Origin: Cryptosporangium arvum DSM 44712
GTDB taxonomy: Bacteria > Actinomycetota > Actinomycetes > Mycobacteriales > Cryptosporangiaceae
DNA: 64,000 bases
Direction: 5' to 3'
Assembly (NCBI RefSeq): GCF_000585375.1
Contig: NZ_KK073874.1
Span: 2,170,001-2,234,000, forward strand
Each line of letters starts with the position of its first letter. Within the stretch, counting starts at the first letter, position 1. The position numbers and the translations under genes are program-made. Under the pieces are notes generated by a model. That model searched no databases and had not been told where the DNA came from. It saw nothing but the letters and a program-made list of their open reading frames with translations. Positions 3,823 through 43,921 of the stretch are shown here, in pieces.

Positions 3823-3831
3823 ACCTGTGTC

Positions 3832-3857: not shown

Positions 3858-3869
3858 GAAACGGTGCAG

Positions 3870-3909: not shown

Positions 3910-3912
3910 AGG

Positions 3913-5112: not shown

Positions 5113-5144
5113 AGATCGGTTCCTTTGCTTCGGTAGCGCGGGCG

Positions 5145-5948: not shown

Positions 5949-5985
5949 GACAGCTCCTCGCTACGCTCGCAGCCGTCATGACCGC
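5941..5985 (-). promoter_or_regulatory. Long inverted repeat covering the flgD start codon
   Basis: GCGGTCATGAC (5941-5951) and GTCATGACCGC (5975-5985) form a perfect 11-bp inverted repeat around 23 nt. In the mRNA the right arm contains the flgD ATG and the loop contains its GAGGAG ribosome site, so folding would hide the start. No experimental support. Confidence 0.5.
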
Positions 5986-6030
5986 GGGGCGACTCTGTTT
6001 CCCGGACCTCGCGCGAGCGCTCGCTCATGG

Positions 6031-9020: not shown

Positions 9021-9042
9021 CGATGCCCCCTCGTCCCCTGCT

Positions 9043-9516
9043 TCAGGAGCCTTCGTCGCCCCCGGCAGAGTTCTCCGTGTTGTCCATCGGCGGCTTCGTC
9101 CGCGACCTTCGGGTTGTGGCCAATTCGTCGACGAGCACCTGGTCCTCGGCCAGCTCGGCCGCGGCCCGTTCGGCCTTGTGACGTTCCTCGAGCTTCTCCA
9201 CGGCCCGCCGGGCCTGGGACGCGTCGGTGTAGTCGCGCAACTTCGCCGCGACCGCCTCCTGCGCGTCCACCACGACGCGCTGGGCCGCGAAGAGCTCACC
9301 GGCCAGCGCCTGCCGGGCCGAGATCGCGGCCACGTACGACCGGGCCAGCGCCGACTCCGGGAGCTGCCGCCCCCGCAACGTCTCGCCGCTGCGCTCCACC
9401 ATCAGCTCCGCTTCCCGTAGCGCCGCCCGCGCGGCGAGCACCTCGCCGCGCAGCGCGTCCTCCTTCGCCTGACGCGCACGCAGCACGGTGGCGAGCCGGA
9501 ACCGTTTCTTCGCCAT
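9043..9516 (-). CDS. fliJ: Flagellar export chaperone FliJ
   Basis: FliJ is the coiled-coil stalk of the FliH-FliI-FliJ ATPase complex, and escorts substrates to the export gate. The 157 residues begin MAKKRFRLATVLRARQAKED, the usual FliJ opening, and are almost entirely charged alpha-helix rich in Ala, Arg and Glu. Its ATG overlaps the fliI stop by one base, so it should be co-translated with fliI. Sequence conservation in this family is low; the call rests on length, helical pattern and position. Confidence 0.85.
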   Translation of the reverse strand: MAKKRFRLATVLRARQAKEDALRGEVLAARAALREAELMVERSGETLRGRQLPESALARSYVAAISARQALAGELFAAQRVVVDAQEAVAAKLRDYTDASQARRAVEKLEERHKAERAAAELAEDQVLVDELATTRRSRTKPPMDNTENSAGGDEGS

Positions 9517-10868
9517 CAGCTGGAGTTCAGCAGCTGGGCCATGGCGTCCCAGGCGGCGCCGGCCGGATACGGATCCCCGAGGCTCTGCCGCAGGAACGCG
9601 GTGATCGCCGGCCAGAGCTCGCGGGCCCGGTCGGCGTCGGGGTTGGTGCCCGGCACGTACGCGCCGATCTCCAGCAACTCCCGCACGTCCCGGTACGCGG
9701 CCATCAGCCGGCGCAGCTCGCTCGCCATCGCTTTCTGCTCGCGGGTCGTGATCGCGCCGGAGACCCGGGACACCGACTCCAGCACGTCGATCGCGGGGAA
9801 GTGCCCGGAGGTCGCGAGCTTGCGGTCGAGCACGACGTGCCCGTCCAGGATCGAGCGGGCGGTGTCGGCGATCGGCTCGTTCTGGTCGTCGCCCTCGACC
9901 AGCACGGTGTAGAGCCCGGTGATCGTGCCCGCGGACCCGGGCCCGGCCCGTTCGAGCAGCCGCGGCAGCAGCGCGAACACCGACGGCGGGTACCCCCGGG
10001 TGGCCGGCGGCTCACCGGCCGAGAGCCCGACCTCGCGCTGGGCCATCGCGGTCCGGGTGAGGCTGTCCATCATCAGCAGGACGTCCTTGCCGCGGTCGCG
10101 GTACCATTCGGCGATCCGGGTCGCGACGAAACCGGCACGCAGCCGCACCAGCGGGGGCGTGTCCGAGGTCGCGACGACCACGACGGCGCGGGCCAGGCCC
10201 TCCGGCCCCAGGTCGTGTTCGAGGAACTCGCGGACCTCACGCCCGCGTTCCCCGATCAGCGCGACGACCGTGATCTCGGCCTCGGTGCCCCGGGTGATCA
10301 TCGACATCAGGCTGGACTTGCCGACGCCGGAGCCGGCGAAGATGCCGATGCGCTGACCCCGGCCGCACGGCACCAGCGTGTCCAGCGCGCGGACGCCCAG
10401 CGGCAGCGGGAAGCGGATCAACCCGCGTTCCATCGCGGTCGGCGGCTCGCCCTCGACCGAGACCCACTCGGTGTTGACGAGCGGCGGCCCGTTGTCCATC
10501 GGGCGCCCCAGGCCGTCGAGCACCCGGCCGCGCAGCGACTCGCCGACCTGGATCTGCAGCGGCGACCCGGTGTTGACCGCGCGGTCACCGGCTCCGACGC
10601 CCCCCAGCGGGCCGAGGGGCAGGCAGGACAGGCGGGCGCCGTCGAGCGCCACCACCTCGGCGGCGATCGTCGTGTTGTCGCCGCGCCCGGAGCCGCTCCG
10701 GATGCCGGCCATCCCGCCGATGCCGCCGATCCGGACCAGGTCACCGACCCGCCCGGGCACACCGACGACCGACACCGACAGACCGAGCACCGAGTCGACG
10801 CGGCCGGTGACCTCCGGCTGGGCCGCGCGGATCGCGGGCGCCAGCCGGTGCTGGAGCAGCCGGCTCAC
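9516..10868 (-). CDS. fliI: Flagellum-specific ATPase FliI
   Basis: FliI is the hexameric ATPase of the flagellar type III export apparatus. The 450-residue protein is related to the F1 beta subunit and shows Walker A (GIFAGSGVGKSSL), Walker B (VLLMMDSLTR) and the family segments GRPMDNGPP and PATRGYPPSVFALLPRLLER. The true start is GTG 10868, which overlaps the fliH stop (GTGA) and gives MSRLLQHRLAP; the frame extends further upstream but only through fliH sequence. It lies in the overlapping block fliF-G-H-I-J. Confidence 0.96.
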   Translation of the reverse strand: MSRLLQHRLAPAIRAAQPEVTGRVDSVLGLSVSVVGVPGRVGDLVRIGGIGGMAGIRSGSGRGDNTTIAAEVVALDGARLSCLPLGPLGGVGAGDRAVNTGSPLQIQVGESLRGRVLDGLGRPMDNGPPLVNTEWVSVEGEPPTAMERGLIRFPLPLGVRALDTLVPCGRGQRIGIFAGSGVGKSSLMSMITRGTEAEITVVALIGERGREVREFLEHDLGPEGLARAVVVVATSDTPPLVRLRAGFVATRIAEWYRDRGKDVLLMMDSLTRTAMAQREVGLSAGEPPATRGYPPSVFALLPRLLERAGPGSAGTITGLYTVLVEGDDQNEPIADTARSILDGHVVLDRKLATSGHFPAIDVLESVSRVSGAITTREQKAMASELRRLMAAYRDVRELLEIGAYVPGTNPDADRARELWPAITAFLRQSLGDPYPAGAAWDAMAQLLNSS

Positions 10869-11590
10869 CACGGCTGATCGGTCGCGTCGACCATGCCCAG
10901 CGCTTCGCCGACGCGCAGGAGAGCCGCGGAGAGCCGGGCGTCGACGACCGTCGCGTCGCTCTCGGCGATCGCGTCGCCGCTGGCCAGCGATGCGTCCGGC
11001 TCGAGGGTCACGGTGCGCCCGTCGATGACGAGCGGGCCTTCGTGGTCGGCTTCCGCGGTGAGCGTCGCGTGGTCGGCCGGGTTGACCCGCACCAGCACCG
11101 GGCGGCCGACCGGCACCAGCTCGAGCGCGCGCGCCACCGCGTCGCGCCCGGGTGAGTCGGCCAGCGCGAGCTCCCGGCCCAGTACCGCCTCTGCGAGGAC
11201 GAACGCCGCGCTGACCAGCTCGTTCTCTAGCTCCATCGCGCTCGGCGCGGCCCGCTGCTCCAACGCGTTCGCGGCCGCCGCGACGGTCTGCAACGCCCGC
11301 TGCAGGCCCGCTTGCCGAGCCTGGTCGAACCGCTGGGTCTCCTCCTCGGCGAGCCGGCGGGCGGCTTCGGCCTCCAGCTTCGCCGCGCGTCGGCCCTCGG
11401 CCCACCCGGCGGCGAACCCGGCGGCCTTCGCGGCTTCTTTCGCCGCCGTGAGCTCGGCGTCGACCGCGGGGACGCGCGGCACCCGCCCCCCGGCCCGGCC
11501 GAGGTTCGTGTCGAACGACGCGCTGACGGCGACGTCGGCCGCCGCGCCGCGCAGCACGCCGGTGGCGGTCGGGTCAGGCGACGAACTCAT
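10865..11590 (-). CDS. fliH: Flagellar assembly protein FliH
   Basis: FliH is the peripheral stator-like regulator that inhibits FliI and docks it to the C-ring. The 241-residue protein has a variable N-terminus, a long Ala/Glu coiled coil with GxxxG-type spacing (AAGFAAGWAEGRRAAKLEAE) and a C-terminal globular domain (VLVRVNPADHATL and the glycine-rich LASGDAIAESDATVVDARLS) like V-ATPase subunit E. Its 5' end overlaps fliG by 17 nt and its stop overlaps the fliI GTG. Confidence 0.9.
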   Translation of the reverse strand: MSSSPDPTATGVLRGAAADVAVSASFDTNLGRAGGRVPRVPAVDAELTAAKEAAKAAGFAAGWAEGRRAAKLEAEAARRLAEEETQRFDQARQAGLQRALQTVAAAANALEQRAAPSAMELENELVSAAFVLAEAVLGRELALADSPGRDAVARALELVPVGRPVLVRVNPADHATLTAEADHEGPLVIDGRTVTLEPDASLASGDAIAESDATVVDARLSAALLRVGEALGMVDATDQPW

Positions 11591-12587
11591 CGTCGTCTCC
11601 CCGCCGGATCGTGATCTGGCCCGACGCTTCCAGCGCCCGGATGTTCTGGACGACCTTCGCCTGGGCCTCCTCGACCTGGCGGAGGCGGACCGGGCCGAGC
11701 ATCTCGACCTCGTCGGCGAGGTTCTCGGCGGCCCGGCCGGACAGGTTGCGCATGATCTTGTCGCGCACCGCGTCGTTGACGCCCTTGAGCGCGGTGGCCA
11801 GGTCGGCCGACTCCACCTGGCGGAGCACCAGCTGGATGGACCGGTCCTCGAGCCCGATGATGTCCTCGAACATGAACATCTTGCTGCGGACCTCTTCGGC
11901 CAGCTCCGGGTTGAGCGTCTCGAGGCCCTCGAGGATCATCTTCTCGGTGCCGCGGTCGGCGCGGTTGATGATCTCGACCAGCGGTTGCAGGCCGCCGACC
12001 ACCGACATCTCGGTCGGCTGGAGCACCGAGGAGAGCTTGCGTTCGAGCGTCTCCTCGACCTGCCGGATCGTGTCGGGCGACGTCCGGTCCATCACCGCGA
12101 TGCGGTTGGCGACGTCGGCCTGGAGGGTGGGGGAGAGCCCGGACAGGATGCCCGAGGCCTGGGTCGCGGTCATGTGGGCCAGCACCAGCGCGATCGTCTG
12201 CGGGTGCTCGTCCTGGAGGAACGAGAGCAGCTGGCGGGCCTCGGCCCGCTGCAGGAAGTTGAACGGGACGTCCGCGATGCTCTTGGAGAGCCGCCCGATG
12301 AGGTCGGCCGCCCGTTCCGCGCCGACCGAGGCTTCCAGTAGGTCGCGCGCGTAGTCCAGGCCGCCCTGGCCGGCGTACTTGTTCGCGGTGGCCAGGTCGT
12401 GGAACTCGAACAGGACGTCGTCGGCGGTCTCGGTCTCGATCTGCCCGAGCCGCGCGATCTCCGCGGTCAGCTCCTCGATCTCGTTCTCGCGCATCTGCGC
12501 GAGGATCTTCGAGGACGCCTCCTTGCCCATCTGCACGAGCAGGATCGCGGTCTTGCGCAGCCCGGTCATGTCGGTGGTGGTGGTCAT
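11574..12587 (-). CDS. fliG: Flagellar motor switch protein FliG
   Basis: FliG is the rotor protein that contacts MotA and sits on the FliF ring. The 337-residue protein contains the FliG N domain (TGLRKTAILLVQMGKEASSK), the middle domain with EHPQTIALVLAHM, and the charged torque helix of the C domain (MFMFEDIIGLEDRSIQLVLRQ). The length is normal for the family. Its ATG overlaps the last base of fliF and its end overlaps fliH. Confidence 0.97.
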   Translation of the reverse strand: MTTTTDMTGLRKTAILLVQMGKEASSKILAQMRENEIEELTAEIARLGQIETETADDVLFEFHDLATANKYAGQGGLDYARDLLEASVGAERAADLIGRLSKSIADVPFNFLQRAEARQLLSFLQDEHPQTIALVLAHMTATQASGILSGLSPTLQADVANRIAVMDRTSPDTIRQVEETLERKLSSVLQPTEMSVVGGLQPLVEIINRADRGTEKMILEGLETLNPELAEEVRSKMFMFEDIIGLEDRSIQLVLRQVESADLATALKGVNDAVRDKIMRNLSGRAAENLADEVEMLGPVRLRQVEEAQAKVVQNIRALEASGQITIRRGDDDEFVA

Positions 12588-31507: not shown

Positions 31508-31686
31508 CGGGATTCCCTCTCGGTCCGGCGTCCGACCGACCGTAAAAATCCGCTGTTTCCCCGCGGTTGGCCGTGCGCGACGCCCGCGCAACATCTCCCG
31601 CACGTTGCGGAACGGTGGCGGTGCGGAGAGAACGTTGCCGACGGGCCGCGCGTGGTCGACAGGACGCTCGTGAGGGGGCGACGCGA

Positions 31687-33924
31687 ATGACCGAACGACC
31701 TGGGCGGCTCACCCGGGCGGCCCTGCTCGGTGCCCTGCTGAGCGCGGGCTATCTCCCCCTGGCGTGGAACGCGCCGATCGGCCCGGCCTGGATCGGGTGG
31801 ATCGCGCCAGGCGCCACCGTGCTCGTCGGGTTGGTGGCGGTCGCGCGCCTGGTGATCGCGACTCCACTGGAGGACGCGTCCCGGCGGTTCTGGCGCGTGC
31901 TGTGGGTGGCCGTCGGCATCATCGGCGCCGGCGGGGTCGGTCAGGCCGTGGACGCGCTGTCCGGGCCGGGAGGGCCCACCCAGATCATGTCGCTGCGCAC
32001 CGCGGGTGCGTTCGTCGTCGGGCTGTTGTTCGTCCTGGCCGCGCTGCTCCTGCTGCCCGTCGGCCGGTTGTCGCGCACCCAGTGGCTGACGTTCGGCCTC
32101 GACGCCGCCACGGTCTTTGCCGGTGCAACGCTGTTCACCTGGTACTTCGCGCTGCGCACGATGGACGACTTCGAGTCGACGAACGGGTCGGCGCTGCCGC
32201 TCGTCGCGATCGTGGTGTGCGGCTTCCTCGGTGTGTTCGCGCTGCTGAAGGTCTCGTTCGCCGGGGTGCGTCAGGTCGATCCGGGGGCGCTGCAGTACCT
32301 GGCGATCGCCGCGCTCACCGGGGCGAGCACGGCCGGGCTGGCGCCGCTGCTCGCGTCCCGGCCGTACCTGAACACCTCGTTCCTGGCGTTCCCGGCCGCG
32401 TTCCTGTTCCTCACCGTCGCCGCGGAACGCCAGCGGCGGGTGGCGCTGGCGGCGTTGGACGCCCCCGTCGAGGCGCCGCGCCGGCGCACCGGGCGGGCGC
32501 TGCACCTGCTGCCGTACGTGGCGGTCGCGCTCACCGACGGGCTGCTGCTGGTGAGCTCGTCGAGCCGGCCGGTGATCGTCGGCACCGTCGTGCTCACCGC
32601 GCTGGTCGGGGCACGTCAGTGGCTCAGTTCCCGGGAGAACGGGCGGCTGCTCGGGCAGCTGCGCTCCTCGGAGAACCGGCTGAGCCACCAGGCCGGCCAC
32701 GACGGGCTGACCGGGCTGGCGAACCGGACGTTGTTCGTGTCCCGGCTTGAGGAGTCGCTCGGGCCCGACGTCGCCGTCGCGCTCCTCGACCTCGACGACT
32801 TCAAACAGGTGAACGACCGGCTGGGGCACGGCGCCGGCGACGCGCTGCTGGTCGCGGCGGCCGCCCGGGTGCAGGGCGCGGTCGGACCGTCGGACACCGT
32901 GGCCCGCCTCGGCGGCGACGAGTTCGCGGTGCTGCTGCGTGGCCCGGTCGGTGACCGGCTCGACCGGATCCTGGCCGCGCTGGCCGAGCCGCTGCTCGTC
33001 GCCGGTGACGAGCTGCGCATCCGGGCGAGCATCGGGTTGGCCGAGGGCTGGGCCGGCGCGACGTCGAGCGAGCTCGTCCGCCGGGCCGACGTGGCGATGT
33101 ACGCCGCCAAGGCCGGCCGCGACGGCAGCTGGGCGCGCTTCGTCCCGGCGCTCGACGCCCCGGCCGCCGACCAGGCGCGCCTCGCCGCCGGCCTGCGCGA
33201 CGGGCTGGGCCGGGGTGACTTCCGGGTGCTCTACCAGCCGATCGTCGAGTTGCCCTCGCGGCGGATCACCGGTGTCGAGGCGCTGGTGCGCTGGCACGAT
33301 CCGGAGCGCGGGGTCATCCCGCCCGACCAGTTCATCCCGGTGGCCGAGCGCAGCGGGCTGATCGTGCCGCTCGGGCAGTGGGTGCTGCGTGAGGCGTGCC
33401 GCGACGCGTCGGCCTGGCCGGGGGTGTACGTGTGCGTGAACGTGTCGCCGCGTCAGCTCGACGATCCGGACTTCGTGGCCGACGTCGCGGTGGCGCTGGC
33501 CGACTCGGGTCTGCCGGCGGACCGGCTGGTGCTGGAGGTGACCGAGACCGCGGTGTTCAACGGCGGCCCGGCGGTGGACGCGCTGAACCTGCTGCGCGAG
33601 ATGGGCGTCCGGATCGCGCTCGACGACTTCGGCACCGGTCAGTCGTCGCTCGGGTTGTTGCTGACCTGCCCGGTCGACGTGTTGAAGGTGGACAAGTCGT
33701 TCGTCGACGGGGTCACCGAACCCGGTGAGCGGGCGGTGATCGTGCAGTTCCTCTCGCAGGTCGCGTCGGGGCTGAACCTGGACACCGTCGCCGAGGGGGT
33801 CGAGACGCCGGAGCAGGCGGAGCGGCTGCACGAGCTGGGCTACCGCAAGGCGCAGGGGTACCTGTTCTCCAAGCCGGTGCCGGCCTCGACGCTGTTCCTA
33901 GATCGGGTTCTGTCCTACCGGTGA
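31687..33924 (+). CDS. Membrane GGDEF-EAL protein (cyclic-di-GMP synthesis/turnover)
   Basis: A 745-residue protein with about eight N-terminal membrane helices (residues ~10-300), a GGDEF diguanylate cyclase domain (HDGLTGLANRTLF; intact GGDEF at 409-413) and a C-terminal EAL phosphodiesterase domain (GVEALVRWHDPERG; EAL at 531-533; NVSPRQL; DDFGTG; LKVDKSFV; EGVET). Both catalytic signatures look complete. The inhibitory RxxD site before GGDEF reads GPSD, so product inhibition may be lost. ATG 31687 has GAGGGGG 9 nt upstream. herA follows 16 nt later. Cyclic-di-GMP commonly controls motility, which fits this neighbourhood. Confidence 0.93.
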   Translation: MTERPGRLTRAALLGALLSAGYLPLAWNAPIGPAWIGWIAPGATVLVGLVAVARLVIATPLEDASRRFWRVLWVAVGIIGAGGVGQAVDALSGPGGPTQIMSLRTAGAFVVGLLFVLAALLLLPVGRLSRTQWLTFGLDAATVFAGATLFTWYFALRTMDDFESTNGSALPLVAIVVCGFLGVFALLKVSFAGVRQVDPGALQYLAIAALTGASTAGLAPLLASRPYLNTSFLAFPAAFLFLTVAAERQRRVALAALDAPVEAPRRRTGRALHLLPYVAVALTDGLLLVSSSSRPVIVGTVVLTALVGARQWLSSRENGRLLGQLRSSENRLSHQAGHDGLTGLANRTLFVSRLEESLGPDVAVALLDLDDFKQVNDRLGHGAGDALLVAAAARVQGAVGPSDTVARLGGDEFAVLLRGPVGDRLDRILAALAEPLLVAGDELRIRASIGLAEGWAGATSSELVRRADVAMYAAKAGRDGSWARFVPALDAPAADQARLAAGLRDGLGRGDFRVLYQPIVELPSRRITGVEALVRWHDPERGVIPPDQFIPVAERSGLIVPLGQWVLREACRDASAWPGVYVCVNVSPRQLDDPDFVADVAVALADSGLPADRLVLEVTETAVFNGGPAVDALNLLREMGVRIALDDFGTGQSSLGLLLTCPVDVLKVDKSFVDGVTEPGERAVIVQFLSQVASGLNLDTVAEGVETPEQAERLHELGYRKAQGYLFSKPVPASTLFLDRVLSYR

Positions 33925-33940: not shown

Positions 33941-35725
33941 ATGACGGCTGCACCGGAGATCGCGGGAATCGACCGGGGGACGCTTCCCTGGGTAGGCCGG
34001 GTGCTGGGCACCGAGGACGCCACTCCGCTGCAGTTCCACGTGGCCCTGCGCGAGGACGCCTACCTCCAGCTCGACGACGTCGTGGTCACCGTGCGGGACG
34101 TGCCCGGGCTCGGTCCGGTGCTCACCGCCGGTGTCGTCACCCAGGTCACGGCCCGGCACGAGGGCGCGCAGTTCAGCTCGGACGTGTTCCTGATCGCCGA
34201 CGGCGTGCTCCCGGCCCAGGTGCAGGAGGTCGCCGAGATCGCCACCACCCGGGTGGAGCCCGAGGTGTACGTGCCGCCGCGCCCGGGGGAGCCGGTGCGG
34301 CGCGCCACCGGCGAGGAGCGCGCGATCGCGCTCTACTTCGACCGGATGGAGCGCAAGGTCCCGGTCGGCCTCGGCCGCGACGGCACGCCGATCTACGTCA
34401 ACCTCGATTTCCTCGACGGCACCCGCGGCGCCCACATCTCGATCTCCGGCGTGTCCGGGGTGGCGACGAAGACGAGCTTCGCGCTCTTCCTCCTCTACGG
34501 GCTGTTCCGGTCCGGTGCGCTGGGGCGGCGCGCGGTCAACACGAAGGCGCTGATCTTCAGCGTCAAAGGTGAAGACCTGCTGTTCCTCGACCACACGAAC
34601 ACGAAGCTCGACGAACGTCTTCGCCAGCAGTACGCGATCATGGGCCTGCCGGCCGAGCCGTTCGCGTCCACGGGGTTCTTCGCGCCGCCGCTGCCGGGCG
34701 ACCTGACCGGCCGGCCCGACGTCCGCGAGCGCGCCACCGGCGTCAACGCGTTCTGGTGGACGCTGCACGAGTTCTGCCGTGACGAGCTGCTGCCGTTCGT
34801 GTTCGCCGACGCCGAGGACGAGCGCAACCAGTACACGATGGTCGTCCACCAGGTCGCGGCCCGCCTGCGCATGGACGCGGTGCCGGCCGGCACCGACGGG
34901 GCGATCGCGGTCGACGGGCGTCAGGTGCGCACGTACGACCAGCTCGTCGACCTGATCTCCGACAAGCTCAGCGACGACAACACCCGGTCGGCGTGGGCCG
35001 GGCAGGTCACCGGTATCGGCACCGTGAACGCGTTCCTGCGCCGGCTGCGCTCGTCGCTGCGTGCGCTGCGCCCGCTGATCCGGGGCGACCTGCCGGAGCG
35101 CCCCACCCGCCGGGTGTCCACCGAGAACCAGCAGCTCACCGTCGTCGATCTGCACAACCTGCCGGAGCGGGCCCAGCGGTTCGTCGTGGGTGTCGTGCTG
35201 GCCGCCGAGACGCGGCGCAAAGAGGAGGCCGGCGCCGGCGGCCTGTTGTTCACCATGCTCGACGAGTTGAACAAGTACGCGCCGCGTGAAGGGTCGAGCC
35301 CGATCAAGGAGGTGCTGCTCGACATCGCCGAGCGGGGCCGTTCGCTGGGCATCATCCTGATCGGCGCGCAGCAGACCGCCAGCGAGGTCGAGCGGCGCAT
35401 CATCTCCAACAGCTCGATCAAGGTGGTGGGCCGGCTCGATCCGGCCGAGGCGGGGCGGCCCGAGTACGGCTTCCTGCCGCCCGGCCAGCGCCAACGCGTG
35501 ACGCTGGCCAAGCCCGGCACGATGTTCGTCGCGCAGCCGGAGATCCCGGTGCCGCTCGCGGTCGAGTTCCCGTTCCCGGCCTGGGCCACCCGGTCGAGCG
35601 AGGCCGGCGAGCTGGGCGTGGCCGCGCCGCCGCCCGGAGTGAACCCGGTGACCGGCGAGATCATCGGCGGGCGCGACCCGTTCAAGCGCCTGCCGTCCGC
35701 CCCCGCCGACGACGCCCCGTTCTGA
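33941..35725 (+). CDS. herA: HerA-like ATPase with N-terminal HAS-barrel and atypical P-loop
   Basis: A 594-residue member of the HerA/FtsK superfamily, hexameric DNA pumps that work with NurA in end resection. Residues about 10-115 look like a HAS-barrel (PWVGRVLGTEDATPLQFHVA). The ATPase core has a P-loop reading ISGVSGVATKTS (Lys177), which has one extra residue and Thr in place of the usual Gly before Lys. Walker B is LLFTMLDELN, and a HerA-type sensor region follows (GIILIGAQQTASEVERRIIS, IKVVGRLD). It lies 16 nt after the GGDEF-EAL gene and 950 nt before sbcD-sbcC-nurA. Confidence 0.82.
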   Translation: MTAAPEIAGIDRGTLPWVGRVLGTEDATPLQFHVALREDAYLQLDDVVVTVRDVPGLGPVLTAGVVTQVTARHEGAQFSSDVFLIADGVLPAQVQEVAEIATTRVEPEVYVPPRPGEPVRRATGEERAIALYFDRMERKVPVGLGRDGTPIYVNLDFLDGTRGAHISISGVSGVATKTSFALFLLYGLFRSGALGRRAVNTKALIFSVKGEDLLFLDHTNTKLDERLRQQYAIMGLPAEPFASTGFFAPPLPGDLTGRPDVRERATGVNAFWWTLHEFCRDELLPFVFADAEDERNQYTMVVHQVAARLRMDAVPAGTDGAIAVDGRQVRTYDQLVDLISDKLSDDNTRSAWAGQVTGIGTVNAFLRRLRSSLRALRPLIRGDLPERPTRRVSTENQQLTVVDLHNLPERAQRFVVGVVLAAETRRKEEAGAGGLLFTMLDELNKYAPREGSSPIKEVLLDIAERGRSLGIILIGAQQTASEVERRIISNSSIKVVGRLDPAEAGRPEYGFLPPGQRQRVTLAKPGTMFVAQPEIPVPLAVEFPFPAWATRSSEAGELGVAAPPPGVNPVTGEIIGGRDPFKRLPSAPADDAPF

Positions 35726-35734
35726 GCGGTACGC

Positions 35735-36067
35735 CTACGACGCGTCGGAGGGGGACGGTTCGGGGCGGAGCGAGGAGCGGGACCGCGCCACGATGTCCTC
35801 GAGGGCGGCGACGTGCCCCTCGAACGCCGCCCGCCCGGCCGGTGTGAGCCGCACGGTGGTGCGCGGCCGCTTACCGGCTAAGGCCTTGTGGATTTCCACG
35901 TACCCGGCCTCGTTCAACGTCGTGAGCTGCTTGGACAGCGCCGAGTCGGACAGGTTCAGCGAGTCGCGGAGAAACTTGAACACGACCCAGTCGGCCGCGG
36001 CCAGCTGAGCGACGATGCCGAGCCGCGTCGGGGCGTGGATGAGCTCGTCGAACCGGGGGTCGGTCAT
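35735..36067 (-). CDS. Winged-helix transcriptional regulator (HTH_34/MarR-like)
   Basis: A 110-residue single-domain regulator starting MTDPRFDELIHAPTRLGIVA, with a recognition helix in LSDSALSKQLTTLNEAGYVE and wing KRPRTTVRLTPAGRAAF. This type (often called winged-helix DNA-binding domain protein) is usually encoded with a small membrane protein. The ATG overlaps the stop of that gene (ATGA, 36064-36067). The palindrome at 36544-36566 upstream of the pair is its likely operator. It is convergent with herA (9-nt gap). Confidence 0.9.
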   Translation of the reverse strand: MTDPRFDELIHAPTRLGIVAQLAAADWVVFKFLRDSLNLSDSALSKQLTTLNEAGYVEIHKALAGKRPRTTVRLTPAGRAAFEGHVAALEDIVARSRSSLRPEPSPSDAS

Positions 36068-36525
36068 CGGGCCGCGCGGCGGAGCATGACCCCACGCAGC
36101 CGTCGGTTGAGGATCGGTCCGGTCACGGCCATCACCGCCTCGGCCGTGCCGATGCCGATCGTCGCCGCGAATCGGACGTCGGCCGACGTGAGTGCGATGG
36201 CGACCGCCGCGCCGATCGCCGCCACGCTGAGCACGAACAGGAAGACGCTCACCACGTCGGCGCCGGTGAGCAGACCACGCCGCTGCCGGACCCCGGAGTG
36301 GAACACCGCCCACAGGACCGACCCCGTCATCCCGACCGCGAACACGACACCCCCGATCGCCTGGAGCACCGGGACGTGGCTCTCGATCGCGGCGGCGTAG
36401 AGAGTCGACACGGCCGCGATGGCGGCCCAGTACCCGTCCGGCACCACCGACGCCGCGATCACCGCCCGCTGCCGGGCCCGCACCTGTGCCAACGCCTCGA
36501 ACGCCTGGTTCCGATCGATCGGCAT
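36064..36525 (-). CDS. Four-helix membrane protein paired with the wHTH regulator
   Basis: A 153-residue protein with four predicted membrane helices (about 29-48, 52-72, 88-108, 117-138) and a short charged N-terminus (RNQAFEALAQVRARQRAVI). No enzymatic motif; family unknown to me beyond its regular pairing with small winged-helix regulators. The ATG has a GAGGAGAG site about 5 nt upstream. The pair's promoter region contains two palindromic TTTCCT/AGGAAA elements, which suggests autoregulation. Confidence 0.85.
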   Translation of the reverse strand: MPIDRNQAFEALAQVRARQRAVIAASVVPDGYWAAIAAVSTLYAAAIESHVPVLQAIGGVVFAVGMTGSVLWAVFHSGVRQRRGLLTGADVVSVFLFVLSVAAIGAAVAIALTSADVRFAATIGIGTAEAVMAVTGPILNRRLRGVMLRRAAR

Positions 36526-36543
36526 GACGCTCTCCTCGTCTGA

Positions 36544-36597
36544 CTACTTTCCTACTAGGAAAGTAGACCTGGCTTTCCTGGTAGGCAAGTACTTTCC
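36544..36597. promoter_or_regulatory. Palindromic operator pair upstream of the regulator/membrane genes
   Basis: Site 1 (36544-36566) is a perfect palindrome with arms CTACTTTCCTA and TAGGAAAGTAG around a single C. Site 2 (36573-36589) is CTTTCCT-GGT-AGGCAAG with one mismatch, and a further half-site ACTTTCC lies at 36591-36597. Its position, 18-72 nt before the divergent regulator pair and about 80 nt before sbcD, suits autoregulation and possibly control of sbcD. Confidence 0.75.
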
Positions 36598-36677
36598 GAG
36601 GCGCGCTGGGCGCGTTCTGTCACAGGAGTCGGCTAGCGTCGCCAGAGACGTCGTCCTTCGACCGCGAGAGAAGAGTC

Positions 36678-37835
36678 GTGAAGTTCCTGCACACGTCCGA
36701 CTGGCATGTGGGCAAGGTCCTCAAGGGCCGCAACCGCCTCGACGAGCAGCGCGCCGTCCTGCGCGAGATCGTGGGGCTCGCCCGCACCCACGAGGTCGAC
36801 GCGGTACTGGTCGCCGGTGACCTCTACGACTCCGCGGCCCCGAGCGCCGAGGCCCAGGAACTCGTCGTCCGCGCGCTGATGGCGTTGCGCGACACCGGCG
36901 CCGAAGTGATCGCGATCGCCGGCAACCACGACCACCCCCGCACGTTCGACGCCTACCGGCCGCTGATGAACATCGCCGGCATCACGATGGTCGGGTCGGT
37001 GCGCACCGCCGAGTCCGGCGGCGTCGTGAGCTTCACCGCGCCGCACACCGGCGAACCGGTGAAGCTCGCGGTCCTGCCGTTCCTCTCGCAGCGGCACGCG
37101 GTCAAAGCGGCCGAGCTCGTCGCCAAGACCCCGGCCGAGAACAGCGCGGGGTACGACCAGCTGATCCGCGATCTGCTCAACACCCTCACCGCGGGCTTCG
37201 GCGACGACGCGGTCAACCTCGTCACCGCGCACCTCACGGTCACCGGCGGCGCACTCGGCGGCGGCGAGCGCGCGGCGCAGTCGATCTTCGAGTACCACGT
37301 CCCGGCCGGCGCGTTCCCGGCCGACGCGCACTACGTCGCGCTCGGGCACCTGCACCGTCGGCAGACGCTCCCGGCGGCGTGCCCGGTGGTCTACTCCGGA
37401 GCACCGATCGCCGTCGACTTCGGCGAGCAGGACAACACGCCGACGGTGTGCCTGGTCGAGGCCACCCCGTCCACCCCGGCGCGCACCACGGATCTCCCGC
37501 TCACCAGCGCGAAACGGCTCCGCACGCTGCACGGCACGATCGCCGAGCTGGGCGAGCGGGCCGCCGAGCACGCCGAGGACTACCTGCGCGTCGTCGTCCG
37601 CGAACCGGCCCGGGCCGGCCTGCGCGAGGAGGTGCAGGCGATTCTTCCGGGCGCGCTCGAAGTACGCATCGACCCGGAGTTCGCGGCCCCGCTGCAGACC
37701 ACCCGGCCCGACCGGCGCGACGATCAGAGCGGCCCGGCCGAGCTGTTCGCCGAGTTCCTCACCGAACGCAAGATCGTCGACGAGCGGGTGCAGAGCCTCT
37801 TCACCCGCCTGCACGACGAAGTCACCACGGGCTAG
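36678..37835 (+). CDS. sbcD: DNA repair exonuclease SbcD (Mre11)
   Basis: SbcD is the nuclease subunit of the SbcCD complex, which trims hairpins and blocked or double-strand DNA ends. The 385-residue protein has the calcineurin-like phosphoesterase motifs in order: HTSDWHVGK (residues 5-13), AGDLYDSAAP, AGNHDHPRTF and GHLHRRQ, followed by a capping domain. The start is GTG 36678 with a weak purine-rich site (GAGAGAAGAG). It is followed 9 nt later by sbcC. The 5' side faces the regulator pair's operators. Confidence 0.96.
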   Translation: MKFLHTSDWHVGKVLKGRNRLDEQRAVLREIVGLARTHEVDAVLVAGDLYDSAAPSAEAQELVVRALMALRDTGAEVIAIAGNHDHPRTFDAYRPLMNIAGITMVGSVRTAESGGVVSFTAPHTGEPVKLAVLPFLSQRHAVKAAELVAKTPAENSAGYDQLIRDLLNTLTAGFGDDAVNLVTAHLTVTGGALGGGERAAQSIFEYHVPAGAFPADAHYVALGHLHRRQTLPAACPVVYSGAPIAVDFGEQDNTPTVCLVEATPSTPARTTDLPLTSAKRLRTLHGTIAELGERAAEHAEDYLRVVVREPARAGLREEVQAILPGALEVRIDPEFAAPLQTTRPDRRDDQSGPAELFAEFLTERKIVDERVQSLFTRLHDEVTTG

Positions 37836-37844
37836 GAGGTACCG

Positions 37845-40800
37845 ATGCGCCCCGTGCTCCTCGCCATGGACGGGTTCGGTTCGTTCCGGGAACCCACCAC
37901 CGTCGACTTCGCCGAAGCCGACTACTTCGCGCTGGTGGGCCCCACCGGCGCCGGCAAGTCGACGGTGATCGACGCGATCACGTTCGCGCTCTTCGGCAGC
38001 GTCCCCCGCTGGGACGACAAGCGGAAGGTATCGCTGGCGCTGGCCCCCACGGCCGCCCGCGGCACGGTCCGGCTGGTGTTCGACGTCGGGCCCGAGCGGT
38101 ACGTGATCGTGCGTGAGCTGCGCCGGGCGGCGTCCGGCGCGGTCACGGTCAAGAACGTCCGGCTGGAGCACCTGGCCGATCCGGCGGCGCTCGGCGACCT
38201 CGAGGACGACACCGAGCTGGTCGCGGCGGACAAGGAAGCCACGCCGGCGGTGGAGACCCTGCTCGGGTTGACGTTCGAGCACTTCTGCACCTGCGTCGTG
38301 CTGCCCCAGGGCGATTTCGCGGAGTTCCTGCACGCCCGCGCCGGCGACCGGCAGAAGATCCTGGTCAAGCTGCTCGGCCTGGAGGTCTACGACCAGATCG
38401 CCAAGGCCGCGAACACCGAGGCGGCCCGGGAGAAGCAGAACGCCGATCTGCTGGGTGACCAGCTCCTGCGTTACGGCGACGCCACCGAGGATGCGCAGCG
38501 CGCGGCGCAGGCCCGGGTCACCGCGCTGGCCGGGGCCGAGAGCCGGGTCGCCGCCGCGCTGCCGGTGCTGGCGTCCGCGTCCGCCGAGGCCCGCACCGCC
38601 CGCGAGGCCGTGGCCCGGCTCACCGCCGAGCGGGACCGGCTCACCGCGGTCGAGGTGCCCGAGAGCCTGGGCGAGCTCGACGCGCGGCTCCGCTCCGCCC
38701 GCGCCGAGGCCACCCGGGCCCAGGAGGCCCTCGCCGAAGCCGAGAGCGCCGACTCCGCCGCCCGCGCCGCGGTGGCCGCCGCACCCGCCCGCGGCCCGTT
38801 GGAGCAGGCCCGGCGCGCCCACGCCGAACTGGCGTCGGTGCGGGCGGGCCGCGCCGCGCTGGTGGACCGGCAGGCCACCGCGGCCACCGCGCTGAGCGCC
38901 GCGGAAGCGCGGGTCGCCGCCGCCGACCAGGCCGTCGAGCAGGCCCGCACCGCGCAGCTCGAAGCCACCGCCGGGGCCGAGGCCGCCCGCGAGGCCGTGG
39001 CCCGGCTCACCGCCGAACGCGACCGGCTCGCCGCCGTGCGGGTGCCGGCCGGCCTGAACGAGCTCGACGCCCGGCTCCGCGCCGCGCGTGAGGTGGCGTC
39101 GCGGGCGGCGGCCGCGCTCACCGAGGCGGAGGCCGCCGACTCCGCGGCCCGCGCGGCGGTCAGCGTCGCCCCGCCCCGCGGCCCGGTGGAGGAGGCCCGG
39201 CGGGCCCGCCACGAGCTGGATGCCGCGGTCGACGGCCGGCCGGCGCTGGTCGAGCGCCGCTCCCGGGCGGCGGCCGGGCTGGACGCCGCCGAACGCACGG
39301 TCGCCGAGGCCAGGGAGGCGGTCGAGCAGGCCCGGGCGGCCCGGGAGTCCGACGCCCGCGCCCGCACCGCCGCCGTCCTGCGTCCGCACCTGGTGGCGGG
39401 GGAGCCGTGCCCGGTCTGCGAACAGACCGTGGCCACCCTCCCGCCGCCGCTCGACGACCAGGCCGGCACCGCCGACGCCGACCGCCGCATCGCCGCGGCC
39501 CAGCGCGCCGCCGACACCGCCGCCGCGGACCGCTCGACCGCCGCGGCGGTCCTCCGCGACGCCGAAGCCGCTCTGGCCGCCGCCGACGAGACGATCGCCC
39601 GCAGGCAGGCCGCGCTCGGCGCGGAGAGCCTGCGGGTCACCGTCCACGGCGACGGGGCCGGCTCGGTGGAGATTCTCGGGCTCGCCGACCTCGAGCGCTG
39701 GCTCACCGCGCGCGACGCGCTCGACACCGCCGCCCGCGCGGCCGACCGCGAACTCGTGGCCGCACGCAGCGCCCGCGCCGACGCCGACCGCGACGCGGCC
39801 AAGGTCGACGCGGAGTCCAGCGGCGTGCGCACCGCGCTGCGCGAGACCCGCGACGCCGTGGCCGCGCTCGGAGCACCCGCCGGGCTCGTCGAGGACGTCG
39901 CGGCCGGCTGGGACGCGCTGGCGACCTGGGCGTCGTCGGCCGCCGCCGAGCGCACCACCGCGCTCACCGCCGCCGGCCGGGCCGAAACCACCGCCGCGAA
40001 GGCACTCACCGCCGCGGAGAAGACCCTCGCGCAGACCCAACAGCAGCTGGCCGACGCCCGGCGCGCGCACACCGAGGCCACGCGGGCCGAGCAGCGCGCC
40101 GCGGCCGAACTCACCGCCGCCGACCGCACCGCCGAAACCCTCACCGCGCAGCTCGGCGACGCACCCGGCGCGGAGGAGCTGGCCCGGTCCCTGGCCGAGC
40201 TCGACGCCCTCGACACCGAGGTGCGCGCCGCCGACGAACGCCTGCGCACCGCCCGCACCGCGCTCGGCGCCGCCCAGCGCACCGCGAAGGAGGCGTACGA
40301 GCAGGTGGCGGCCACCGTCCGCGGGCTCACCGCGGTGCGCGAGCCGCTGGTGGCGCTGGGCGCCCCGGCGATCCCGTCCGACGACCCGGTCGGGGGGTGG
40401 CGGGCGTTCGCCGACTGGGCGTCGGCCGCCGCGGCCGAGCGGGTGGATCAGCTGGCGGAGGCCGAACAGACGGTGCACACGGCCGACCGCGCGCTGGCCG
40501 ACCACGAACAGGCGCTGCGTGACCTGCTCGCCGACCTCGGCATCCCGCTCCCGGCCGACGGCGCCGCGCTCCCGTCGGCCCGGCCGGTCGCCGAGATCGC
40601 GCCGACGGCGGTCGCGCGGGCGCTCGCGGAGGCCCGCGCCGCCGAGGCGCGGATCACCGAGCGGCGCACGGAATGCGCCGACCTGGTCCAACGCCGCGAT
40701 GCCGCGGAGACCGCCCAGCAGGTGGCCCGGCAGCTCGGCCAGCTGCTCCGGTCGGACGCCTTCCCGCGCTGGCTGGTGGCCTCCGCGCTCGACCTGCTCG

Positions 40801-41225
40801 TCTCCGAGGCCTCCGCGACGCTCGCCGAACTGTCCGGCGGGCAGTTCGCGCTCACCCACGAGGCCGGCGAGTTCGTCGTCGTGGACCGGGCCGACGCCGA
40901 CAGCCGCCGCCCGGTCAAGACGCTCTCCGGCGGGGAGACCTTCCAGGCGAGCCTGGCGCTGGCGCTCGCGCTCTCCGCGCACCTGTCGACGATGGCCGCG
41001 TCCGGCGCCGCCCGCCTCGACTCGATCTTCCTCGACGAGGGCTTCGGCACGCTCGACGAGGCGACGCTCGAAGTGGTGGCGGCGACGCTGGAGAACCTCG
41101 CCGCCGGAGGTGACCGGATGGTCGGGCTGGTCACGCACGTGGCCGCGCTCGCCGAACGGGTGCCGGTACGGTTCGAGGTCAGCCGCGACCAGCGCACGTC
41201 CGTGGTGACGAAGGTGGTGCAATGA
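37845..41225 (+). CDS. sbcC: DNA repair ATPase SbcC (Rad50)
   Basis: SbcC is the ATPase/coiled-coil subunit of SbcCD. The 1126-residue protein has Walker A at 32-40 (GPTGAGKST), the Q-loop segment CVVLPQGDFAEFL, two very long Ala/Glu/Arg coiled coils, a zinc hook (CPVCEQ, near residue 524), the signature TLSGGETFQASLAL, and Walker B (DSIFLDEGFGTLDE). The ATG has a strong AGGAGGT 5 nt upstream. Its stop overlaps the nurA start (ATGA). The Ala-rich coiled coil is extreme, which also leaves long spurious open frames on the other strand. Confidence 0.96.
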   Translation: MRPVLLAMDGFGSFREPTTVDFAEADYFALVGPTGAGKSTVIDAITFALFGSVPRWDDKRKVSLALAPTAARGTVRLVFDVGPERYVIVRELRRAASGAVTVKNVRLEHLADPAALGDLEDDTELVAADKEATPAVETLLGLTFEHFCTCVVLPQGDFAEFLHARAGDRQKILVKLLGLEVYDQIAKAANTEAAREKQNADLLGDQLLRYGDATEDAQRAAQARVTALAGAESRVAAALPVLASASAEARTAREAVARLTAERDRLTAVEVPESLGELDARLRSARAEATRAQEALAEAESADSAARAAVAAAPARGPLEQARRAHAELASVRAGRAALVDRQATAATALSAAEARVAAADQAVEQARTAQLEATAGAEAAREAVARLTAERDRLAAVRVPAGLNELDARLRAAREVASRAAAALTEAEAADSAARAAVSVAPPRGPVEEARRARHELDAAVDGRPALVERRSRAAAGLDAAERTVAEAREAVEQARAARESDARARTAAVLRPHLVAGEPCPVCEQTVATLPPPLDDQAGTADADRRIAAAQRAADTAAADRSTAAAVLRDAEAALAAADETIARRQAALGAESLRVTVHGDGAGSVEILGLADLERWLTARDALDTAARAADRELVAARSARADADRDAAKVDAESSGVRTALRETRDAVAALGAPAGLVEDVAAGWDALATWASSAAAERTTALTAAGRAETTAAKALTAAEKTLAQTQQQLADARRAHTEATRAEQRAAAELTAADRTAETLTAQLGDAPGAEELARSLAELDALDTEVRAADERLRTARTALGAAQRTAKEAYEQVAATVRGLTAVREPLVALGAPAIPSDDPVGGWRAFADWASAAAAERVDQLAEAEQTVHTADRALADHEQALRDLLADLGIPLPADGAALPSARPVAEIAPTAVARALAEARAAEARITERRTECADLVQRRDAAETAQQVARQLGQLLRSDAFPRWLVASALDLLVSEASATLAELSGGQFALTHEAGEFVVVDRADADSRRPVKTLSGGETFQASLALALALSAHLSTMAASGAARLDSIFLDEGFGTLDEATLEVVAATLENLAAGGDRMVGLVTHVAALAERVPVRFEVSRDQRTSVVTKVVQ

Positions 41226-42166
41226 AGTTCTCCGTCGACGCCTGGGACCCCGGTTACGGCACCAGCACCGAGGACGACGCGGCCCGCAAGAAGTCGTCGG
41301 CCCAGCTGGACCTCGAAGTCGAGCGCCCCCAGGCCGACTGGAAGCCGATCGAGCCGCGTCCGGTCCCCGCGCCCTCCGCGGTGCTGTTCGTCGACGGCGT
41401 GCGGCGCATCGATGCCCAGCTCTGGGTGCACAGCGAGAACGCGGCGTCGCTGGCGATCTGCGCCTCCTACGCGGCCGGCGTCGTGTGCTGCACCGACTCC
41501 GGTGCCACCGTGCCCACCGTGCAGGTCCGCCGGGGTGTGTTCACCGCGGCCGAAGACGCCGCGCCGGTCTCCACGTCGGCCGGGACCTATGCCCTCTACA
41601 AGGTGCGCCGCGACGACGCCGACGCGCTCAGCCTCGGCGTGCAGAGCCAGCTCGCCGACGTCGAGATGGAGGCCGCCCGCCGCGCCCGCGAAGGCCTCGG
41701 CGAAGCGGCGTCCGGCACCGACCTGCTGGTGGTCGACGGCCCGCTCAAGGGGCGTCAACACCTGCCGCGGGCGCTCGGCTTCATCAAGACGCACAAGGCC
41801 GAGTACCTGCCCGCCCACCTCAACGGCGTGGTCGCGCGCCTGGAGGCGGCGCACCGCTCGCCGGTGTTCCGGATGGGCACCAGCTGGGACCGCTACGCCT
41901 GGTACCTGCGCCTCCCGGGCGCGGTCGGTTCCCCCTGGGCCGGCGTGGTCCGCGTCGAGTGCGCCGCCGAACTGACGGCCGCCGACGCGGTCGCACTGGC
42001 GAACCTGAGCCAGGAAACCCTGTGCCGGTACGCGTCGGTGGAGTTCAAGGATTCGCGCGCTCCCCAGAACCTGTTCCCGATCGCCGGCCTCGAACGGGCC
42101 CTGCGCCGCCGGCTGGGGGATCCGGGGCTCCTCTACCGGGCGTTGCGCACGGCCGCCCGCCCCTGA
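41222..42166 (+). CDS. nurA: NurA-like nuclease
   Basis: A 314-residue protein whose motif order fits the NurA domain, a 5'-3' nuclease that partners HerA. I see VLFVDGVRRIDAQ (Asp58, first metal site), LLVVDGPLKGRQ (Asp172), FIKTHKAEYL, RYAWYLRL, and a C-terminal DSRAPQNLFPIAGLERALRR like the NurA tail. No other family fits as well, but similarity is at motif level only. ATG 41222 overlaps the sbcC stop (ATGA), so it is translationally coupled to SbcC. With herA 5.5 kb upstream, all four partners of the archaeal resection system are present. Confidence 0.7.
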   Translation: MKFSVDAWDPGYGTSTEDDAARKKSSAQLDLEVERPQADWKPIEPRPVPAPSAVLFVDGVRRIDAQLWVHSENAASLAICASYAAGVVCCTDSGATVPTVQVRRGVFTAAEDAAPVSTSAGTYALYKVRRDDADALSLGVQSQLADVEMEAARRAREGLGEAASGTDLLVVDGPLKGRQHLPRALGFIKTHKAEYLPAHLNGVVARLEAAHRSPVFRMGTSWDRYAWYLRLPGAVGSPWAGVVRVECAAELTAADAVALANLSQETLCRYASVEFKDSRAPQNLFPIAGLERALRRRLGDPGLLYRALRTAARP

Positions 42167-42259
42167 TCCCCGGTCGCCGCCCCCGCGCGTTCAAGAGCGT
42201 GATCTAAAGGGTATAACCACGCATAAGCGGCTTAACTGGCGACGGAGAGGGGCTGGACC

Positions 42260-43855
42260 GTGCGGTCGGCGGCCACGCGGATGCGCTTCGGCTTCGCGAT
42301 CGTGATCGTCTTCCTCGTGCTCGCGGCCGTCGTCGAGTTCGCCTCCGGTGCCCTGCACGGCGGGATCTTCTCGCTGGGAGGCGCGATCCTGGTCGGCCTG
42401 ATCGGGGTTCGTCTCGGCCGCGAGATCGCCCAGCCGCTCGACGCCCTCGGGGACGTCCTGCACCGGGCCGCCGCCGGTGATCTCACCGCGCGTGCGCCGC
42501 TCGGCGGGCCGAAGGAGGCCGCCACCGTCTACGCGGCCGCGAACACCGTCATCGCCGAGTGCGAGCAGGCGACCTCGGTCGAGGAGACCCGCCGGCTGGT
42601 GCGCCGCCTCGCCGATCCCAACGGCGAGACCCCGAGCGCCAAGGGGCCCGAGGCCGCCCTCGCGGACGTCGTGCCCCGCGTCGGCGCCGCGCTCGCCGTC
42701 GACCGGGTGTTCGTGCGGGTCACCGCGGGGAAGACCTATGTCGCGCAGTGGCAGCGCGACGGGCTCCAGCCGGTGTCGGACGAGCTCCCGCTGCTGCCGC
42801 CCGACCCGCGCAGCTCCGAGCCGGTGGGAACTCCGGACGCCCACACGAACCTGCGCGGCGACCCGATCCTGTACGGCGACACCCCGCGTGCCCGCGCCGC
42901 CCGCACGCTCACCGAGGACGCCGATGCCCGGGCGCTCGTCACCACCCGCATCTCGGTGGCCGGCAAGCCGTGTGGCGCGCTGATGGTGATGGACAGCGGC
43001 GGCCCCCGGAGCTGGACGCCCGGCGAGCTCGACCTGCTCACCTCGGTCGCCGCCGACCTGAGCCGGATGGTGGAGAACGCGCAGCTGCGCGCCGACCAGC
43101 GTCGGCTGGAGAGCGAGAAGCAGTTGTTCATCGCGACCGCGTCCCACGAATTGCGGACGCCGCTCGCGAGCGTCCTCGGCTACCTCGAGCTGCTGGCGGT
43201 CGGCGACTTCGGCGGGCTCACCGAGGACCAGCTCAACGCGATCCGGGTCGTCGAGCGCAACACCACCCGCCTGCACGAACTGGTGCTCGACCTGCTGACG
43301 ATCTCCGGCATCGGACCGGCCGGCGACCTCACCGAGCGGCCGCCGGTCGACCTCAGTGACGTCGCCATGAAGGTCATCACGGAAACCGAGGCGCTGGCCA
43401 CCGAGGCTCAGCTCGAGCTGCGTTACCAGGAGAAGGACCCGGCGACCGTGCTCGGAGAGTCCCGGCAGATCGAGCGGGCGCTCACCGCGCTCGTGCACAA
43501 CGCGATCGTGTTCACCCCGGCGGGCGGATCGATCACGATCACGCTGGACCGCGACACCGGGGACGGCCGACCGATCGGCACCGCGCGGCTCGCCGTCGCC
43601 GACACCGGGATCGGTATCCCGGAGGCCGAGCGCGGGCGCGCGCTCGAACCGTTCTACCGGGGGACCAACGCGCTCGAACGCGGCATCGCCGGGTCGGGGC
43701 TCGGGCTGTCCATCGTGGCGATGGTCGCGCAGCAACACGCCGGAACGGTGACGCTCACCGCCCGGCCCGGCGGCGGCACCGAAGCCACGATCCACCTGCC
43801 GCTGGCCCAGTACACCGCGGCCGCGGTGTCCGGCGCGATCATCGGTTGGAGCTAG
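42260..43855 (+). CDS. Membrane sensor histidine kinase (HAMP-GAF-HisKA-HATPase)
   Basis: A 531-residue kinase with two N-terminal membrane helices (about 10-29 and 33-52) separated by only a few residues, a HAMP-like linker (REIAQPLDALGDVLHRAAAG), a GAF-like region (about 135-270), HisKA with His296 (ATASHELRTPLASVLGYLEL), and HATPase_c (HNAIVFTPAGG, VADTGIGIP, GSGLGLSIV). No response regulator is adjacent. The GTG start has GGAGAGGGG upstream; a TATAAC element at about 42212-42217 may be part of its promoter. The next gene is in the same direction. Confidence 0.9.
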   Translation: MRSAATRMRFGFAIVIVFLVLAAVVEFASGALHGGIFSLGGAILVGLIGVRLGREIAQPLDALGDVLHRAAAGDLTARAPLGGPKEAATVYAAANTVIAECEQATSVEETRRLVRRLADPNGETPSAKGPEAALADVVPRVGAALAVDRVFVRVTAGKTYVAQWQRDGLQPVSDELPLLPPDPRSSEPVGTPDAHTNLRGDPILYGDTPRARAARTLTEDADARALVTTRISVAGKPCGALMVMDSGGPRSWTPGELDLLTSVAADLSRMVENAQLRADQRRLESEKQLFIATASHELRTPLASVLGYLELLAVGDFGGLTEDQLNAIRVVERNTTRLHELVLDLLTISGIGPAGDLTERPPVDLSDVAMKVITETEALATEAQLELRYQEKDPATVLGESRQIERALTALVHNAIVFTPAGGSITITLDRDTGDGRPIGTARLAVADTGIGIPEAERGRALEPFYRGTNALERGIAGSGLGLSIVAMVAQQHAGTVTLTARPGGGTEATIHLPLAQYTAAAVSGAIIGWS

Positions 43856-43921
43856 GGCCACGTCGAAGGGAGGATACGGTTATCGTGAGCCGGTTTCGCC
43901 CTTCGACCTGAATGGACTCAT

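Follow-up and report, generated by a model that had tools for sequence, protein, structure and literature searches.

A linked herA-sbcD-sbcC-nurA gene set of bacterial type in Cryptosporangium arvum and other Actinomycetota, a candidate module for double-strand-break end processing

We analysed a 64,000-nucleotide stretch of the single-contig 9.2 Mb genome of Cryptosporangium arvum DSM 44712 (NZ_KK073874.1, positions 2,170,001 to 2,234,000; hereafter the window, in whose numbering coordinates are given), which carries genes for a HerA-type DNA translocase, an SbcD/Mre11-type nuclease, an SbcC/Rad50-type ATPase and a NurA nuclease close together (Table 1). This four-gene linkage is broad within Actinomycetota, occurs in many families and is not local to the window. 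Judged by model scores and nearest solved structures, the four proteins are of bacterial, not archaeal, type. We propose with moderate confidence that the set is a dedicated bacterial module for processing the ends of double-strand breaks. A more specific proposal, which we hold only tentatively, is that it may be a separate bacterial four-protein resection machine whose own SbcCD lineage co-evolved with HerA-NurA as a loading and end-opening partner, which underwent one rearrangement to a Sulfolobus-like gene order independently of archaea, and which, having displaced the ordinary SbcCD, provides the only one in this genus.

The identities of HerA and NurA come from solved bacterial structures. 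The window HerA matches HerA of Deinococcus radiodurans (drHerA; PDB 7f6d) with a phmmer E value of 3.8e-141. The seven drHerA residues K175, T176, D220, D487, E488, R495 and R552 (Walker A and B motifs and pore arginines), whose functional roles are reported in PMC9960219, all align with identical residues. By sequence alignment, residues 17-319 correspond to drHerA 14-339, the span checked for the N-terminal HAS-barrel. A Pfam scan of this protein gave no match up to E 1, and PADLOC matched it to mad8 (1.3e-9) and HerA (5e-6). On these alignments the window protein is a real HerA of the bacterial (Deinococcus) type. Its P-loop (residues 169-179) departs from the common pattern at the position preceding the catalytic lysine, where T replaces G. 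Eight aligned HerAs show no variation at K177 or across its surroundings S172-S179, and D. radiodurans has the same residues.

The window NurA matches NurA of 7f6d at a phmmer E value of 1.9e-19. A structure model built from 52 alignment rows reached a mean predicted local distance difference test score (pLDDT) of 92.0; a model from only 11 rows (pLDDT 51) was discarded as poor. The original prediction had staked the locus on a NurA fold in the protein starting at 41222, and that fold is present in the model: the best Foldseek match was D. radiodurans NurA (7f6d_G, E 6.5e-18), followed by Thermotoga maritima TM1739 (1zup, 6.4e-14) and Sulfolobus NurA (2ygk, 3.8e-6). Residues D53, K201 and R309 of D. 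radiodurans NurA (drNurA), given catalytic roles in PMC9960219, align with D58, K189 and R279 of the window protein, a mapping that uses an inferred 20-residue offset of the PDB sequence; the three residues are invariant in a 55-row alignment. The model and these residues identify the nurA product as a NurA nuclease with an RNase H-like NurA fold and a predicted 5'-3' activity. Profile searches, which had been suggested as a check, gave a mixed outcome: Pfam NurA scored 12 bits (E 0.14), below its cut-off of 21, and Pfam missed HerA, while both proteins matched 7f6d by phmmer. The Pfam cut-off is a detection threshold and not a biological feature; identification of NurA rests on fold and solved-structure match. 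Routine annotation can hide the system, since Pfam recognises neither HerA nor NurA here.

SbcD scored 175.9 bits (E 1.2e-51) against TIGR00619, over the cut-off of 77.65, and carries the Pfam domains Metallophos and SbcD_C. For SbcC the best NCBIfam model was TIGR00618 (E 1.1e-79), but its 268.6 bits fall below the cut-off of 478.5; Pfam SbcC_Walker_B matched at 4.9e-12, and the Walker A, CxxC hook, signature and Walker B motifs could be picked out by eye in the translation. The two products thus show the sequence features of SbcCD/Mre11-Rad50, namely a metallophosphoesterase with SbcD_C and ABC halves with a CxxC hook. Open reading frames (ORFs) lie where HerA, SbcD, SbcC and NurA had been predicted, and the matches to 7f6d, TIGR00619 and TIGR00618 uphold the names. 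The set had also been called archaeal-style, a term that fits the layout alone, because, among solved structures, those of D. radiodurans are the closest to HerA and NurA, and SbcD scores much higher with bacterial models than with any archaeal Mre11 model (the best of these, Mre11_Sulfo, reached 60.7 bits); the Thermoprotei HerA model gave only 11.6 bits for the window HerA. On the same scores and matches, gene transfer from archaea is not favoured.

The linkage was surveyed at three depths. Among 41 genomes (the window's own and 40 relatives), clear NurA and clear HerA matches coincide in the same nine genomes. A NurA profile search of the class matched 18 of 296 genomes, 17 of which, the window's own included, hold all four genes together; the other (locus L042, genome G318) retains only a C-terminal piece of nurA, in a 20 kb stretch where herA, sbcD and sbcC all gave no match, which suggests a copy in decay. 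Across the phylum, 134 of 396 genomes matched a HerA profile at 1e-3. A hand count of the rows put 77 at E < 1e-60, of which 75 come from classes other than the window's. Beyond two already included, loci were taken from 33 of the 77, hand-picked for family spread, and from three genomes with weaker matches; all four genes lie within the fetched stretch in 28 of the 33. Incomplete loci have three genes and then a contig end, with NurA on another contig (L076); nurA-herA, then sbcD 5.3 kb on, then a contig end (L058); herA at a contig end and NurA on another contig (L061); HerA alone with NurA about 18 kb off on the same strand (L051); or nurA-herA only, without sbcCD in the next 6.9 kb (L080). 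In total, 65 HerA-bearing loci were compared, including two actinobacterial plasmid-collection records and one cyanobacterial plasmid. All four genes are present in 56 of the 65, so the expectation that the linkage is kept in related genomes held, with two gene orders: herA-sbcD-sbcC-nurA (order A, 37 loci) and nurA-herA-sbcD-sbcC (order B, 19 loci). No gene is reversed relative to herA at any of the 65.

No sbcD-sbcC gap exceeds 300 base pairs (bp) in 58 measured pairs (59 existed; one lay outside the script's range). In 27 of 37 order-A loci sbcC and nurA are no more than 60 bp apart, and the same is true of nurA and herA in 17 of 22 cases. From the 65 were excluded loci without herA (L014, L017, L022), weak matches (a stop-containing NurA fragment of G028, L013, and a G032 HerA at 28%), a duplicate (L028, with the same match identities as L002) and short copies of longer loci (L001, L005-L012); L077 and L078 were not used. 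One genome (G464) holds two divergent four-gene sets (L081, L082), both in order B. One plasmid-collection record, an 11.85 Mb Nonomuraea sequence filed as 'plasmid I' (L026, NZ_LT559118.1), looks like the chromosome, judging from its size.

We compared the linked SbcDs with stand-alone SbcDs, of which 18 stretches (L079 included) were collected and 13 used; L091, whose frame is split, and the weakly scoring L096-L099 (60-90 bits) were left out. In a quick tree of 74 rows, the order-A rows cluster with support 95, and 12 of the 13 stand-alone rows cluster separately with support 100. A second, careful tree with 62 of these rows, which omits near-duplicates and the order-B rows L081, L073, L075 and L069, has a 100/100 branch of length 1.7 that parts 12 of the 13 stand-alone SbcDs from all 49 linked ones; order A is again a group (96/87). 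In both trees L017 was labelled order A though its herA is on another contig. The thirteenth stand-alone SbcD (L086, from G017, which has no HerA or NurA match) sits among order-B rows. On this evidence the window SbcD belongs to a group apart from ordinary stand-alone actinobacterial SbcD. The pairwise distances of the four proteins also correlate (r 0.90-0.94; 0 of 1000 permutations as high) over 55 complete loci (the other one of the 56, L041, being truncated), in values that carry no species-tree control. In a HerA tree, order A is one group (98) adjoining order-B rows, the cyanobacterial one included; six incomplete loci (L015, L018, L023, L051, L061, L076) were labelled A by default and three (L058, L074, L080) B from nurA-herA alone. 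As order A is one group in this tree, whose root is not fixed, a single relocation of nurA between the orders is suggested.

The window genome has one TIGR00619 match, the linked SbcD, and the same holds in three genus mates. Since the linked SbcD is the sole match in these genomes and is set apart in the tree, the genus appears to rely on SbcCD of the cassette type and not on ordinary SbcCD. Elsewhere the two occur together: G167, G226, G309 and five of the six genomes of one further group (f32 g90) have a second SbcD over the cut-off, the sixth (G188) having one only. A family mate of the window genome (G004) has only a stand-alone SbcD, and no HerA or NurA match was found in it. The original prediction had linked SbcCD with HerA and NurA homologues; the linkage is widely kept, although ordinary SbcCD with additions does not quite describe it, the window SbcD being in a separate group.

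It is not settled how DNA ends pass from SbcCD (Mre11-Rad50) to an enzyme of long-range resection. In the scheme that we propose for the end-processing module, SbcC dimers would bridge and clamp the DNA end and SbcD would make the first cut at blocked ends or hairpins, in line with the known activities of SbcCD. A HerA hexamer would then thread onto the opened duplex and pump it into a NurA dimer, and NurA would remove the 5' strand to leave a 3' tail for RecA. SbcCD would hand ends to HerA-NurA, by contact or merely by sequence of action. We infer this joint action from the linkage, the set's own SbcD group and the contact between Mre11 and HerA described for Sulfolobus (PMC2288612).

Double-strand-break repair is further indicated, in a few lineages, by gene neighbours. 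Every locus was searched for non-homologous end-joining genes, using Ku, ligase and LigD polymerase as queries. Ku lies beside the set or within about 4 kb of it in four of the 65 loci (L045, L051, L063, L082), from two families, with a LigD primase-polymerase in three of them. In L045, L051 and L063, of one family, the roughly 6 kb upstream of herA contain ligase, Ku and primase-polymerase genes; in L082, of another family, Ku adjoins nurA. Ligase alone is near L076 and is farther off in L020, L021 and L024.

A number of results weigh against a dedicated module with its own SbcCD. Ku and LigD neighbours occur in only a few loci. In the quick SbcD tree, the long-branch rows L081, L073 and L075 fell apart and L069 stood beside the stand-alone group (support 84), and these were the rows omitted from the careful tree; the uncontrolled r values count on the same side. 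The herA-sbcD joint is the loosest of the set, with a gap above 300 bp in 14 of 60 pairs. The window's genus is among these loose cases (two other members have gaps of about 1.15 kb and 2.1 kb), and in another genome of the genus (G001) herA is on a different contig. In the window itself, herA and sbcD are on one strand but are parted by two minus-strand genes. No LexA-like site was found just upstream of herA or sbcD at one mismatch or fewer. The window genome also has two adjoining long-frame PF12705 matches, to which we give the name AdnAB from frame length and adjacency; because of these ORFs elsewhere in the genome, the four-gene set is probably not the sole resection route. Finally, PMC9960219 reports modest or improved damage resistance in bacterial nurA or herA deletions, and PMC5448004 reports ultraviolet sensitivity in Thermus, so that the role is unsettled.

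The alternative that survives best, which we nevertheless judge unlikely, is that HerA-NurA and SbcCD are separate enzymes working on their own substrates and kept together by co-regulation for the same stress. The loose herA-sbcD joint and the nurA-herA pair of L080 agree with it, as does the finding that D. radiodurans HerA-NurA works without SbcCD in vitro (PMC9960219). However, co-regulation alone would allow any SbcCD to serve, whereas in most loci the linked SbcD lies outside the stand-alone lineage, with distances that follow those of the HerA and NurA proteins.

It is considerably less probable that the set is an anti-phage or anti-plasmid system, in which HerA-NurA and SbcCD would degrade foreign linear DNA. 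The set is patchy in the class, as the NurA count in 18 of 296 genomes indicates, and it occurs on plasmids. A Streptomyces linear plasmid (L025) bears it near a JetA2-JetB2-JetC2-JetD2 (Wadjet) locus (3980-12382) that is divergent from the set and separated from it by two minus-strand genes; order B is present on a cyanobacterial plasmid of conjugative type. HerA has the PADLOC matches given above, and the NurA model matches TdpAB (8wfd) at E 8e-5, far weaker than 7f6d, with a NurA-like fold common to both. TdpAB is a defence system with a HerA-like partner and is not known to include SbcCD. Against a defence role, the set supplies the sole SbcD of the window genome, Ku lies near it in some loci, and its GGDEF-EAL neighbour also occurs in genus mates. 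A PADLOC scan of ten ORFs around and between the window genes (other loci were not scanned systematically) found nothing beyond a generic ABC-type ATPase and a weak match of the HTH_34 regulator. A phage origin was also considered and set aside, as just two phage records have a HerA match, at 26-28% identity. That the genes are chance neighbours or misidentified is hardly credible: the Pfam results for NurA and HerA would allow it, and the fold and solved-structure matches and the linkage in 56 of 65 loci already refute it.

Several known systems resemble the proposed module in part. D. radiodurans HerA-NurA shares its protein types, catalytic residues and NurA fold (7f6d; PMC9960219) and performs translocation-coupled 5' resection (PMC9960219). 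It is treated there as a two-gene nurA/herA operon, whereas the window has sbcD-sbcC too, and its connection with SbcCD is called open in PMC4663267. In Oceanithermus profundus hepA has sbcD-sbcC downstream (PMC5448004). As in the window, a bacterial HerA gene is followed by sbcD and sbcC; the Oceanithermus arrangement looks like order B. The linkage is therefore not unknown in bacteria. The prediction had called it not the textbook arrangement. Among the papers listed, from a literature covered only in part, none describes the actinobacterial four-gene set in its title or abstract opening. Oceanithermus is one Thermales case, for which its authors proposed recruitment of SbcCD (PMC5448004), whereas the actinobacterial set spans many families and has a second order. 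Stand-alone bacterial SbcCD is of the same enzyme family, with the same motifs, and differs in its place across the 100/100 branch of the SbcD tree.

Order A is probably also the gene order of Sulfolobus. The Sulfolobus herA/mre11/rad50/nurA operon (PMC4351679, PMC2288612) clusters the same four functions as the window, in which the proteins fit bacterial models instead. The Results of PMC4351679 give the order herA, mre11, rad50, nurA and its abstract a different one; all four genes are reported there as essential in Sulfolobus islandicus. The archaeal system has been studied in hyperthermophiles. The bacterial set has its own SbcCD type and in some genomes is accompanied by an ordinary SbcCD as well; through it the system can be approached genetically and biochemically in mesophiles, perhaps in forms that the cell can do without.

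Table 1. Features of the four-gene locus in the window.
Feature	Coordinates	Strand	Basis and remarks
herA (HerA/FtsK-family DNA translocase, Deinococcus type)	33941..35725	+	phmmer match to PDB 7f6d
HTH_34 winged-helix regulator	35735..36067	-	Pfam HTH_34, 9e-28 (scanned as 35735-36070); convergent with herA; bounds approximate, start 36067 taken from sequence
153-amino-acid ORF	36064..36525	-	ORF list; membrane-type by eye; ATGA overlap with HTH_34 regulator
Palindrome pair CTTTCCT-N3-AGGAAAG	36547..36589		36547-36563 perfect; 36573-36589 one mismatch
sbcD (Mre11-type nuclease)	36678..37835	+	GTG start; TIGR00619, Pfam Metallophos and SbcD_C
sbcC (Rad50-type ATPase)	37845..41225	+	TIGR00618, 1.1e-79; SbcC_Walker_B, 4.9e-12
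nurA (NurA nuclease, predicted RNase H-like fold)	41222..42166	+	phmmer match to 7f6d NurA, 1.9e-19; fold match of model

Within the window, sbcC and nurA share an ATGA, as had been noted (stop TGA 41223-41225, start ATG 41222-41224). The original prediction had overlooked the minus-strand HTH_34 gene and 153-amino-acid ORF, which split herA from sbcD across a gap of 952 bp, so that the four genes, though linked, do not look like a single operon here. Because of this split only sbcD-sbcC-nurA is operon-like, and it is likely an operon in this genome, with herA a separate unit. The two minus-strand genes gave no tblastn match in related loci and are outside the conserved gene set; a Pfam scan of the 153-amino-acid ORF found no family over cut-off. 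In the same-genus locus L015, repetitive DNA occurs between herA and sbcD (about 3300-4230), and its ORFs read one short motif repeatedly. The palindromes are the sole two sites in the 9.2 Mb genome with one mismatch or fewer. They lie between the minus-strand pair and sbcD and are probably an operator, perhaps private to this locus, which might also affect sbcD-sbcC-nurA.

Regulation by the SOS response or by PafBC was examined with LexA-type and PafBC-like patterns. LexA-type GAAC-N4-GTTC at one mismatch or fewer occurs 26 times in the window (19.8 expected), and the PafBC-like pattern at three mismatches or fewer 32 times (19.5 expected). One PafBC-like site with three mismatches (36617-36639) lies 38 bases before sbcD. 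A role for the set as a replacement for AdnAB was also considered and is unsupported, PF12705 matching 51 of 52 genomes both with and without the four genes.

In the window the GGDEF-EAL gene (31567-33924) precedes herA, which starts 16 bases after its end. A Pfam scan of ten neighbours matched six, all of them ordinary in kind, a major facilitator superfamily transporter, a ketopantoate reductase and an enoyl-CoA hydratase among them. Beyond nurA, ARAGORN called a tRNA-Pro(GGG) on the minus strand (42568-42656) within the minus-strand ORF 42191-43861, so that either the call is false or the ORF is mis-bounded. The ORF is about 50% identical to one in the same-genus locus L017.

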